Shown here: one piece after another, positions 1-52,081 of the stretch | How the letters are laid out: every line of letters begins with the position of its first letter | How positions within the stretch are numbered: position 1 is the stretch's first letter | Origin: Thiemannella venezuelensis | GTDB lineage: Bacteria; Actinomycetota; Actinomycetes; Streptosporangiales; Streptosporangiaceae | Direction of reading: 5' to 3' | DNA: 64,000 nucleotides | Assembly (NCBI RefSeq): GCF_014203605.1 | Contig: NZ_JACHJJ010000001.1 | Coordinates: 1 to 64,000, forward strand | Program-made: the position numbers and the translations under genes | The notes under the pieces: generated by a model | The model's input: only the letters and a program-made list of their open reading frames with translations | Told to the model about the DNA's origin: nothing | Databases searched by the model: none

Positions 1-670
1 CTAGAGAAACGCCACAGCAGTACACACAGGCGTATTTCCGCAGGTCATAGACCAGATGCGTGCTCTAGACATGACGAATTACGCGGAACGCGGGCTTGAG
101 GATCTCCTGCCCGTCCGGCTGGATCTCCAACGCCTCACGGACGATGCCGAGGAGCGGCAGCGAGCGGTTGCCCGCCGTGGTCTTCACCGGCCCGTGATGC
201 AGCTCCTTACCGACCCGAACAAGCTGCCGTCGGATGTTGACGTGTCCTTCCTCGAAGTCCACATCGACCCAACGGAGCCCGAGCGCTTCACCCCGCCGCA
301 AGCCGTACAGCAGCAGGAGCACGAAGGCCGGGTACAGAGGATCGAACCTCGCAGCTCGAAGGAAGGCCCGCGCCTCATCGGCCGTCCACGGCTGATTGCG
401 CTTGGAGTCGATTTCCGGAAGAGTCGCCAGCCGCGCGACGTTGCGAGAGATGATTTCTTCCCGCATGGCTCGCGTCAGGGCCGCACTCAGGACATTCCGC
501 ATGACGTGAACGGTTCCGATCGCGTGATCTTCCCCGTTGATCTTTCCGTTGAGGAAGGTCTGAACCTCTGCGACGGTCAGCCGGTCCAGCTTCTTCCGGC
601 CGAGCCCCGGCTTGAGGTAGAGACGAACGATCGTCTCGTACTTGGCGAACGTGGTCTTGCGGATCAAGAG
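1..670 (-). pseudogene. Decayed tyrosine recombinase (phage/ICE-type integrase)
   Basis: The minus-strand frame reads as an actinobacterial tyrosine integrase. It has an SAM-like core-binding segment (KTTFAKYETIVRLYLKPGLG), followed by the first catalytic Arg in LLLYGLRRGEALGLRW. The open frame stops at a TAG at 65-67. Beyond this stop, in the same frame, a degenerate box-II-like peptide (YDLRKYACVYCCGV) resembles the usual HDLRHTCATLLLAAGV, with the catalytic His replaced by Tyr. The stretch that normally separates the two boxes is mostly missing, and the N-terminal arm-binding region upstream of ~670 is not recognisable. The gene is therefore almost certainly inactive: an internal deletion, an in-frame stop and a lost His. 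The final Tyr box would lie beyond the window start. It marks an old integrated element. Confidence 0.75.
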
Positions 671-963
671 CGGCGGCGCGTCGCGCCGCCGCCACGGCTC
701 CCGCTCTGCGGGATCCGTCCGGGCATGCGGCCTGGAGGCCGGTCCCGGCCGGACCCGCCCGCGGGGCAGCCCGCCGTACGACCACCGCGCCGTACCCAAC
801 CAACTCACCGCACCGAGGTCCGCACCGCCGCCCGGGAGGCCGCTCCGACCACCGGCCCCGACCGCTATGCGGCGTCTCCGGCGTCCTTCGGATTGGCGCC
901 GGCCGCTCCGCTCTCGGCCAGAGATCTACTGCCCCGGAACCCCAGGTCCTACGATCAACCGCC

Positions 964-4709: not shown

Positions 4710-4767
4710 GCGGACCGGTCCGGCCCGGGGCGCGCGCCGGCGCCCTCCGCCGGGTCCTGGCCCGTCG

Positions 4768-4840
4768 TGCCGCCCCCGGGATTCGAACCCGGAACCTCCG
4801 CGTCCTGAGCGCGGCGCCTCTGCCGTTGGGCCAGAGCGGC
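4768..4840 (-). tRNA. tRNA-like, anticodon CAG (Leu), class I body
   Basis: The cloverleaf is complete. The acceptor stem GCCGCTC/GGGCGGC has discriminator A, the anticodon stem CCGCG/CGCGG encloses loop CTCAGGA, and the T arm is CCGGG-TTCGAAT-CCCGG. The anticodon CAG predicts Leu, yet the variable region is only about five bases (AGGTT) instead of the long arm that bacterial tRNA-Leu needs. Last gene of the seven-member array; no CCA is encoded. Confidence 0.8.
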
Positions 4841-4841
4841 G

Positions 4842-4913
4842 AGTGGGTGACGGGACTCGAACCCGTCCTTCGACCTTGGCGCGGTCGTGTGCGGCCGCTG
4901 ACACCTCACCCAC
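4842..4913 (-). tRNA. tRNA-Gly-like, anticodon GCC, with C33
   Basis: The acceptor stem GTGGGTG/CACCCAC is perfect with discriminator T, as in bacterial tRNA-Gly. The anticodon stem CGACC/GGTCG encloses loop GCGCCAA, giving anticodon GCC. Position 33 is C instead of the near-universal U, and position 32 is G. The T arm ACGGG-TTCGAGT-CCCGT is normal. It is separated by one base from the neighbouring tRNA. Confidence 0.8.
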
Positions 4914-4924
4914 GGGATGCGTGG

Positions 4925-4995
4925 CTGCCGGAGAAGGGATCGAACCTCCGTCCCCGACCCTGAGGCGGGTGTCCTGCCGACTGGACGATCCGGCA
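4925..4995 (-). tRNA. tRNA-like, anticodon CAG on a Glu/Gln-type body
   Basis: The acceptor stem TGCCGGA/TCCGGCA has U1-A72 and discriminator G, and the D arm TCGTCCAG...GGAC resembles tRNA-Glu/Gln. The anticodon arm CCCGC-CTCAGGG-TCGGG has a C-U mismatch at the loop-closing pair and shows anticodon CAG (Leu). The variable loop is only about three bases. Identity is ambiguous: the anticodon says Leu and the body says Glx. Confidence 0.7.
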
Positions 4996-5108
4996 CCACG
5001 TCGAACATTCCAACCATGCGCCCGATCCGGATGGCGTGGGCCGTACGGACGCGAATGGGCCGTGGACCGGGCGGGGGACGCCACTCCCGTCGCCGAGTCT
5101 CCGACCCG

Positions 5109-5130
5109 GTGCCCTCTCCTTTCAGGGCAC
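5109..5130. other. Hairpin inside the tRNA array
   Basis: A 7-bp perfect inverted repeat GTGCCCT/AGGGCAC with an 8-base loop lies in the longest gap of the array (4996-5132). It could be a processing signal or partial terminator separating the three distal tRNAs from the four proximal ones. No T-run follows on either strand. Confidence 0.45.
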
Positions 5131-5132
5131 AG

Positions 5133-5204
5133 AGCCGCAGCGGGGACTCGAACCCCGTCCTGCTGGGTGGAAGCCAGCCGCCTTACCGGTTCGGCTTCTG
5201 CGGC
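5133..5204 (-). tRNA. tRNA-Gly (anticodon TCC)
   Basis: The acceptor stem GCCGCAG/CTGCGGC is perfect with discriminator T. The anticodon arm GCTGG-CTTCCAC-CCAGC gives anticodon TCC, and the T arm is CGGGG-TTCGAGT-CCCCG. Acceptor, discriminator and anticodon agree with Gly. It is one of the more normal members of the array; C38 in the anticodon loop is unusual. Confidence 0.85.
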
Positions 5205-5218
5205 GTGGGCGCCTCCGG

Positions 5219-5292
5219 TCCGAGTGGCAGGATTCGAACCTGCGACGTTCTGCTCCCAAGGCAGACGGGCTGCCAAACTGCCCCACACTCGG
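5219..5292 (-). tRNA. tRNA-Pro (anticodon TGG)
   Basis: The acceptor stem CCGAGTG/CACTCGG is perfect with C1-G72 and discriminator A, as in bacterial tRNA-Pro. The anticodon arm TCTGC-CTTGGGA-GCAGA gives anticodon TGG, and the T arm is GCAGG-TTCGAAT-CCTGC. This looks like a fully functional tRNA. Confidence 0.88.
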
Positions 5293-5333
5293 GAAGGTCG
5301 CGCGGCCCGGCGGCCGTGCGCGGAGGCGCCTCG

Positions 5334-5404
5334 TGGACAGACAGGGAATCGAACCCTGAACTCCTGCTTGCAAGGCAGGCGTGATCCCGTTTCACCATCA
5401 GCCC
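5334..5404 (-). tRNA. tRNA-Ala (anticodon TGC)
   Basis: The anticodon arm CCTGC-CTTGCAA-GCAGG gives anticodon TGC. The acceptor stem GGGCTGA/TCTGTCC keeps the G3-U70 wobble that specifies Ala but has a U-U mismatch at pair 5-68. Discriminator A. It duplicates the isoacceptor of the canonical tRNA-Ala at 15234. Confidence 0.82.
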
Positions 5405-5567
5405 GAGGACGTGCCCGTCGCGGCCCGCCCCGGAGGGAGCGGGCCCACGGACCCTGCCCGCCCCGTCCGCGCGACGGAGAGGCAGTGTTCCAAAGAATTT
5501 TCATCCCGCTTTTCAATTGTCGGAAATGCATTCCCGCCCTCTGCCCGCGGGCATGGACGGACATTCG

Positions 5568-5638
5568 CATGGGCGGCGGGATTCGAACCCGCATACACCG
5601 GCTTCGGAGGCCGCTCGCCGCCGCCGGCGCACACACAT
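5568..5638 (-). tRNA. tRNA-like, anticodon CCG (Arg), degenerate
   Basis: The T arm GCGGG-TTCGAAT-CCCGC is perfect and the anticodon loop CTCCGAA gives CCG (Arg). The anticodon stem has only four good pairs, and the acceptor stem ATGTGTG/CGCCCAT has one mismatch. The D arm is very GC-rich and ambiguous. It is first in the array relative to the promoter. It could be a decaying tRNA or one with relaxed structure. Confidence 0.6.
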
Positions 5639-5680
5639 ATCGATTCACCCGGTTTTCGGAACCACCCCCGGAACGACGAA

Positions 5681-5710
5681 GCCGCCCGTCGGGTGGTCTC
5701 CCGGGGCGGC
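5681..5710. other. Strong hairpin between leader ORF and tRNA array
   Basis: Arms GCCGCCC/GGGCGGC extend through CGGG/CCCG across a 2-base bulge to a 6-base loop. It lies just after the stop of the 32-codon ORF and before the first tRNA in transcription order (minus strand). It could be an attenuator or processing hairpin; there is no U-run. Confidence 0.5.
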
Positions 5711-5726
5711 TGCCGTGCAGGTGATG

Positions 5727-5825
5727 TCACACGGCTGCCTCGGGAGGAGCGAGCCCGCCGCCGGCGGGGAGCCAGCGCACACTCAGCTCGCGCCACGGCA
5801 GGGCGGCGGCCTCGTACGCGTTCAT
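5727..5825 (-). CDS. Possible 32-aa leader peptide ahead of the tRNA array
   Basis: ATG at 5825 has GGAAGGA about 7 bases upstream and lies ~40 bases downstream of a good -10 box. The product begins MNAYEAAALPWREL and is rich in Ala, Leu, Pro and Gly, with two Trp. I do not recognise it. Its position between a promoter and a hairpin/tRNA array on the same strand suggests a leader or regulatory ORF, but a chance frame is possible at this length. Confidence 0.45.
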   Translation of the reverse strand: MNAYEAAALPWRELSVRWLPAGGGLAPPEAAV

Positions 5826-15233: not shown

Positions 15234-15309
15234 GGGGCCTTAGCTCAGTTGGCAGAGCGCCTGCTTTGCAAGCAGGATGTCAGGAGTTCGAATCTCCTAG
15301 GCTCCACCA
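15234..15309 (+). tRNA. tRNA-Ala (TGC), canonical, CCA encoded
   Basis: The acceptor stem GGGGCCT/AGGCTCC has the G3-U70 pair, the D arm is TAGCTCAGTTGGCAGAGC, the anticodon arm is CCTGC-TTTGCAA-GCAGG, and the T loop is TTCGAAT. CCA is encoded at 15307-15309. This is the housekeeping alanine tRNA beside DLW-39, and its 3' side borders the mobile-element debris. Confidence 0.97.
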
Positions 15310-51998: not shown

Positions 51999-52081
51999 GG
52001 GCGGGTGGCGGAACGGCAGACGCGCACGGTTCAGGTCCGTGTGTCCGAAAGGACGTGAGGGTTCAAATCCCTCCTCGCCCA
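51999..52081 (+). tRNA. tRNA-Leu (CAG), canonical class II
   Basis: The acceptor stem GGGCGGG/CTCGCCC (one G-U pair) has discriminator A, the anticodon arm CACGG-TTCAGGT-CCGTG gives CAG, and the long variable arm TGTCCGAAAGGACGT is present. It is the normal counterpart of the short-armed CAG tRNAs at 4768 and 4925. TAATGT at 51975-51980 is its likely -10. Conserved neighbour of fhaA. Confidence 0.97.

Follow-up and report, generated by a model that had tools for sequence, protein, structure and literature searches.

The window, a 64,000-nt stretch of the Thiemannella venezuelensis genome (contig NZ_JACHJJ010000001.1, positions 1 to 64,000), carries a run of seven minus-strand tRNA genes between 4767 and 5638. 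ARAGORN called exactly seven genes there, with the anticodons listed in an earlier note made from the letters alone, and the Rfam tRNA model (RF00005) matched six of the seven at 38-64 bits (cut-off, 29 bits). By position they are tRNA-Leu(CAG) with a short variable arm (4767-4840; 56.1 bits), tRNA-Gly(GCC) (4841-4913; called by ARAGORN, unlisted by Rfam at that cut-off), a tRNA-Gln body (4922-4995), tRNA-Gly(TCC) (5132-5204; 62.8 bits), tRNA-Pro(TGG) (5217-5292; called by both programs, 64.2 bits), tRNA-Ala(TGC) with G3-U70 retained (5333-5404; 62.0 bits) and a decayed tRNA-Trp (5567-5638). Seven genes in 0.87 kb exceed the minimum density of a tRNA array unit (2 tRNA genes per kb), and their number lies below its minimum size (20 tRNA genes). 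On the same strand, a predicted leader ORF (5727-5825) and terminator hairpin (5681-5710) lie upstream of the tRNAs, and the largest spacer, 4996-5131, holds a conserved RNA element (5014-5131). The earlier note described the tRNAs and left these other features out. On the plus strand, 4843-5724 shows long spurious ORFs antisense to the tRNAs, with GIEPPSPT-like and GFEPATFCSQ-like peptides; such ORFs are a familiar sort of annotation artefact.

The genome (8.18 Mb in 85 contigs) gave 66 tRNA matches. Forty-three further stretches contained 58 typed tRNAs, and these, together with the housekeeping genes for Ala(TGC) at 15234 and Leu(CAG) at 51999 of the window, cover every isotype of the array, which is therefore fully redundant. 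The seven genes, their anticodons and the two housekeeping copies were thus as first described, but several of the oddities read into the array were not. The absence of an encoded CCA, said to hold throughout, fails at 4922-4995, where the gene terminates in GCAGCCA; elsewhere in the array it is nothing unusual, since only 20 of the 58 housekeeping genes encode CCA. By comparison with relatives and full-size arrays, this same gene, called Leu(CAG), is a Gln(CTG) body whose anticodon has changed from CTG to CAG (Gln identity, 0.70 and 0.78 in arrays of 35 and 18 tRNAs, L120 and L074). The gene called Arg(CCG) at 5567-5638 is a decayed Trp gene with CCA changed to CCG (best-match identity, 0.68 in L120 and 0.73 in L074), and it diverges between relatives about as much as the spacers do. 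C33 is present in Gly(GCC) but is private to this genome, the relatives carrying T33. The short-armed Leu(CAG) at 4767 is real, but it is the standard form of reduced chromosomal arrays and thus nothing peculiar to this locus; the form also occurs in actinophages, Microbacterium phage Magritte giving an 84% match.

The seven genes run Trp-Ala-Pro-Gly(TCC)-Gln-Gly(GCC)-Leu(CAG). They form an ordered subset of L120, a 35-tRNA array on the linear plasmid NZ_CP107854.1 of Nonomuraea sp. NBC_00507, and their order is close to those of L074 (18 tRNAs) and L075 (a contig with 28 tRNAs). In pairwise comparison, the best match of each member in L120 or L074 was to its own isotype, with order kept. Arrays of full size (18-35 genes) are carried by the Nonomuraea linear plasmid, actinomycete chromosomes and one phage contig; L120 (35), L075 (28) and L312 (30) exceed 20 genes. 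Judged by order and identity, the seven genes are a reduced, colinear remnant of a larger mobile tRNA array. A fragment of the tyrosine-recombinase integrase type (65-808, minus strand; a Phage_integrase match under the curated cut-off) lies about 4 kb from the array and is a possible trace of integration.

The array occupies one chromosomal site with flanking genes common to three genera, including Planomonospora and Planobispora. When the window was compared with relatives from two genera, identity reached 98.6-100% for Ala and Gly(TCC), about 87-100% for the remaining living members and 48-75% for the Trp remnant; among close relatives it was 65-72% for the spacers and 68-79% at third codon positions in two flanking genes. 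These comparisons indicate that selection acts on most members of the array, not all. A horizontally acquired array in decay had been suggested earlier. The order, which equals that of mobile full-size arrays, and the decay of Trp and Gln bear this out in part, but the remaining members are under selection, given the shared chromosomal position of the array in three genera and the near-invariance of Ala and Gly(TCC). The proposed mark of debris, low covariance scores without conservation in relatives, was the opposite of what we found, six of the seven genes scoring 38-64 bits and the array being conserved. The flanking genes encode a membrane transport protein and a GGDEF-EAL protein; as a functional key to the array, they offered no evident link.

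The leader ORF (5727-5825) has 32 codons, MNAYEAAALPWRELSVRWLPAGGGLAPPEAAV followed by the stop codon, and a Shine-Dalgarno-like GGAAGGA 5' of its ATG. ORFs of 31-32 codons with conserved ends are found in the window and five relatives. The residues W, A, P, G and L of the window leader match the array; taken by itself, this leader is mildly enriched (19 of 28 residues in the set vs 14.6 expected), and GC-rich genomes favour Ala, Gly, Pro and Leu. Across all six clade genomes, the presence of a Gln codon in the leader coincides exactly with an intact Gln(CTG) gene: both are found in G001, P. takensis, P. siamensis and G234, and neither in the window or P. rosea. A Trp codon is found in the leaders of the window, P. 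rosea and G234 and is absent from the other three; where the Trp remnant could be aligned, P. rosea and G234 preserve it better than do G001 and P. takensis.

Comparable leaders lie upstream of arrays across Streptosporangiaceae: MKFETIMRRRMRRILLMPRQASG before Leu-Met-Arg, MRFAAERASCRRAAALARKASG before Ala-Glu-Arg-Cys, MAAIIAKPAKPAKQAQRFAARPQHVFVVPRDASD before Ala-Pro-Phe-Lys-Gln-Ile-Val, MSYEARQEQAGGLLLVLVLRQRRSPAE before Leu-Leu, MNTMPKRGTQPGQGPMSRQASG before Pro-Met-Gly and MLIPALPRPSAVTLPELRRRLSG before Pro-RNA-Leu. Employing a filter on Shine-Dalgarno sequence, length, position and C-terminal motif, we found 58 non-redundant leader ORFs, a count that, unlike the permutation test below, does not control for the choice of the filter after the first examples had been seen. 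The same filter returned none at the 43 housekeeping tRNA stretches, none before the array of plasmid pCBMA213_1 or that of phage Magritte, and no leader was detected at arrays L262, L264-L266, L272 and L273. Leaders covered the isotypes of their own arrays at 0.994, vs 0.732 when leaders and arrays were permuted (n = 55; 0 of 20000 permutations). Because related genomes are not independent, the test was also made with one leader per broad array family, and coverage was 1.00 vs 0.60 (n = 13; 0 of 20000). Agreement at the level of codons was weak (Glu GAA, p = 0.007; Ala, p = 0.06; both uncorrected for relatedness). Leaders of full arrays use 15-18 different residues, and two of four exceed windows of real proteins in this respect (p about 0.01). 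Through the family-wide match to the arrays, these predicted ORFs are rich in regulatory codons, as the leader of an attenuator should be. On the evidence of these comparisons, leader and array co-evolve, and the residues of the leader follow the surviving tRNAs.

In the window, the putative terminator (5681-5710) is formed by GCCGCCCCGGG...CCCGACGGGCGGC and followed by TTCGTCGTTC, a weak U-tract; with its flanks it folds at -28.5 kcal/mol (z -4.1). Its U-tract is not clean, and a strict terminator scan missed it. Within the clade, the hairpin lies 16-17 nt past the stop codon of the leader. All 59 leaders tested have a hairpin beyond their stop codon (median, -22.7 kcal/mol), mostly with 16-22 nt between stop codon and 5' arm, and a T-run after it is usual (median, 7 T in 11 nt). 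A terminator of this form was not seen in the relatives L060 and L065. Rfam gave no match besides tRNA in the window, and hence none to a T-box leader.

The predicted antiterminator (5700-5744) pairs the end of the leader ORF (5730-5744) with 5700-5717, which comprises the terminator 5' arm and the bases preceding it, a pairing that would exclude the terminator. In the leaders tested, the ORF end likewise pairs with the 5' arm of the terminator. The ORF end is often GGCTTCCGG, just before the stop codon, which accounts for the recurring C-terminal ASG or LSG of the leaders. With a for the ORF end and b and c for the terminator arms, native a:b pairing had -22.9 kcal/mol vs -19.8 when segments were swapped between loci (0 of 5000), and b:c pairing -23.9 vs -18.9 kcal/mol (0 of 5000); an upstream segment of the ORF gave a pairing energy of -14.5. 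In the window clade, 94.9% of cells in the antiterminator alignment were paired vs 32-56% in slid versions, and covariation was modest (2 compensatory pairs; 47 of 500 shuffles as good). By these measures, both pairings are locus-specific. An intrinsic terminator between the leader and the first gene, with an antiterminator made from the ORF end and the terminator 5' arm, is, as far as sequence and folding can establish it, the anatomy of ribosome-mediated attenuation.

The same arrangement is found on a mobile element. The viral contig IMGVR_UViG_3300044653_000098 (141,724 bp, with a terminase match) has a leader, MMQRRYSEQRNQDGHFAIPCPAMLGTSEVASG, an attenuator and 30 tRNAs in an order similar to other arrays. 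It was the only true case when viral contigs were searched with the attenuator DNA pattern; a class-wide search with this pattern gave 5 matches without tRNAs.

The RNA element at 5014-5131 (minus strand) is about 115 nt long and folds into three hairpins, a consensus drawn from 14 copies. Over 59 distinct sequences, 14 pairs showed change on both sides, and covarying cells numbered 115, whereas shuffles gave 23 and slid versions 6-17. Hairpin 2 has the loop UGGCG and hairpin 3 the loop CGCCA; the two are complementary and nearly invariant. A kissing pair between them is plausible, because the divergent copies L189 and L190 keep an extended match. Another divergent copy (L072, 10112-10222, minus strand, in G026; 31.8 bits), which directly precedes Leu(GAG)-Leu(CAG), has loops UGGCGUC and GACGCCG, complementary over 7 positions. 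No family of Rfam 15 matched the RNA. The GOLLD model (RF02032) gave nothing in the window at its gathering score, nor on 4990-5140 at a relaxed E-value.

The RNA was found in 38 of 40 Nonomuraea genomes, in a single copy in all but one, and in several other Streptosporangiaceae genera. With stricter filters, none was found beyond this family in 296 genomes of the phylum and 297 of the class; there was none in 40 genomes of genus g82, nor in the viral contigs and plasmids. Three further possibilities were set aside: non-actinomycete matches to a DNA pattern, which fell short of the model; the RNA as a dispersed repeat, nearly every genome having one copy; and the gap after Gly(TCC) in L120, which has the right length and a different fold. 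The RNA is held by 19 of 20 loci found through tRNA bodies alone, and many Nonomuraea loci have kept it and lost their tRNAs, some of them being syntenic with Pro-RNA-Leu loci; a clear copy is absent from some reduced arrays and from full arrays. In Nonomuraea, the Pro-RNA-Leu locus (L067, 5361-9649) lies downstream of genes for the large and small subunits of ribonucleotide reductase and a mechanosensitive channel. This arrangement is conserved in about 20 species, and these flanks, considered as a functional key, had no evident link to the array. In one Nonomuraea genome (G222), two equal-scoring RNA-Leu(CAG) copies (L187 and L188) represent a duplication or an assembly artefact.

Together, these features suggest a tRNA array operon that has been reduced, is fixed in the chromosome and is regulated by ribosome-mediated transcription attenuation, a reading to which we give a probability of roughly 0.7. 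By default, a ribosome would read the leader to its stop codon and cover the 5' arm of the antiterminator, the terminator would form, and the operon would be off. If the tRNA that a leader codon calls for were absent or lacked its amino acid, the ribosome would stall upstream, the antiterminator would form, and RNA polymerase would enter the tRNA genes and the embedded structured RNA. The leader would thus serve as a checklist of its own array's tRNAs, and the operon would therefore make replacements when their cellular counterparts are depleted; the spare tRNAs are probably switched on only after the cell's own copies run out. A likely purpose, we infer, is to restore translation after attack by tRNA-cleaving toxins or defence nucleases, to which the variant bodies may be less sensitive. 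The full-size version is found on mobile elements; the one in this genome is trimmed.

The alternative with the best standing, though a tentative one, is that the leader senses ordinary amino-acid starvation and the array tRNAs act as decoys or triggers of the stringent response rather than as replacements. Attenuators of trp, trpS, leuS and ilvB type, predicted in Actinobacteria, respond to uncharged tRNA (PMC1262725), and an uncharged and a missing tRNA look alike in attenuator anatomy, so that starvation and tRNA destruction are indistinguishable by sequence. Three points favour destruction: new tRNA is of use only in that case, a lack of amino acid not being cured by more tRNA; the system is found on a phage and a plasmid; and phage tRNAs have been proposed to replace nuclease-depleted tRNAs (PMC10264068). 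The mixed leaders of full-size arrays, too, suit a general alarm better than the sensing of a single amino acid.

It is somewhat less probable, and doubtful in our view, that the structured RNA is the conserved product and the flanking tRNAs are passengers or processing signals. Its near-universal, single-copy presence in Nonomuraea, its occurrence in nearly all loci found through tRNAs and the loci that retain it without any tRNA are in keeping with such a role, but the arrays that have no clear copy and the strong constraint on tRNA bodies in the window clade are not. We regard as unlikely that the locus is decaying debris of a mobile array integrated long ago and now being lost, with nothing functional in it. 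Decay of the Trp and Gln members, C33 in Gly(GCC) and independent loss of members in relatives fit that view, but the near-invariance of Ala and Gly(TCC) beside spacers of 65-72% identity means that the array is not plain debris, and leader residues that track surviving tRNAs, like an RNA that covaries, also speak against it. Slightly more improbable still is constitutive expression, with an irrelevant leader and retained tRNAs that raise the supply of common isoacceptors. The housekeeping genes do duplicate all array isotypes, but neither the leader-array match nor the locus-specific terminator and antiterminator pairing would then be expected, and the architecture of the operon predicts low basal expression. 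The non-ribosomal or mistranslating role raised earlier, including non-ribosomal aminoacyl transfer, for which the short-armed Leu(CAG) and the changed anticodons could be cited, is very improbable, as the off-type features are traits of the array-tRNA lineage or decay of single genes, odd anticodons occur only in decayed members, Ala retains G3-U70, and no tRNA-dependent enzyme was found among the flanking proteins tested.

Beyond attenuation as such, we lean towards a self-indexing tRNA-replacement operon, which we hold to be a little better than an even chance. In this proposal, arrays on actinomycete mobile elements and chromosomes have leaders that list the tRNAs downstream; if any of these were lost, the operon would make variant replacements, possibly insensitive to nucleases, along with a three-hairpin RNA not described before, and the leader would change as the array loses members. 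It has long been asked when, and for what reason, large redundant tRNA arrays are switched on by phages, plasmids and some bacteria, and leader codons that act as a checklist of the array would supply the switch and the signal together. If true, this would link classical attenuation to tRNA-targeting immunity, provide a sequence signature for finding such arrays and add an RNA family widespread in the sampled Nonomuraea genomes. The open-access literature yielded no case of tRNA genes regulated through a leader peptide.

tRNA array units are known from plasmids, phages and chromosomes of Mycobacterium (Morgado and Vicente 2018, PMC5966550; Yano 2026, PMC12803027). They share with the present array dense redundant tRNA genes, diverged bodies and mobile carriers, and the order Gly(TCC)-Leu(CAA)-Gln..Thr..Gly(GCC)-Leu(CAG) of pCBMA213_1 is partly shared. 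However, they are defined by 20 or more genes, whereas the window array has seven, preceded by a leader and an attenuator. The array of the Mycolicibacterium plasmid pCBMA213_1 contains GOLLD (L118, 5827-6251; 196.7 bits), and the structured RNA of about 430 nt in PMC5966550 is probably GOLLD and not the window RNA. Both are structured RNAs within tRNA arrays, but GOLLD is about 416 nt long and has a different model.

The predicted attenuators of Actinobacteria, which control trp, trpS, leuS and ilvB (PMC1262725), likewise combine a leader peptide with a terminator and an antiterminator that overlaps the ORF end and excludes the terminator. They control enzymes, whereas the array attenuator would control tRNA genes and an RNA, with a mixed leader that tracks the downstream tRNAs. 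The trn operon of Anabaena, a silent operon of 26 tRNA genes induced by translational stress, shows that a silent tRNA array can be inducible in this way, but its control is by the DNA-binding repressor TrcR, and an attenuator or leader is not mentioned (PMC10272220). Phage tRNAs evade tRNA-targeting defences and, like the altered-body tRNAs of the array, have been proposed as replacements for nuclease-depleted host tRNAs; the available part of that account describes no sensing of depletion by the phage array (PMC10264068), whereas the array in the window is proposed to have its sensor built in.
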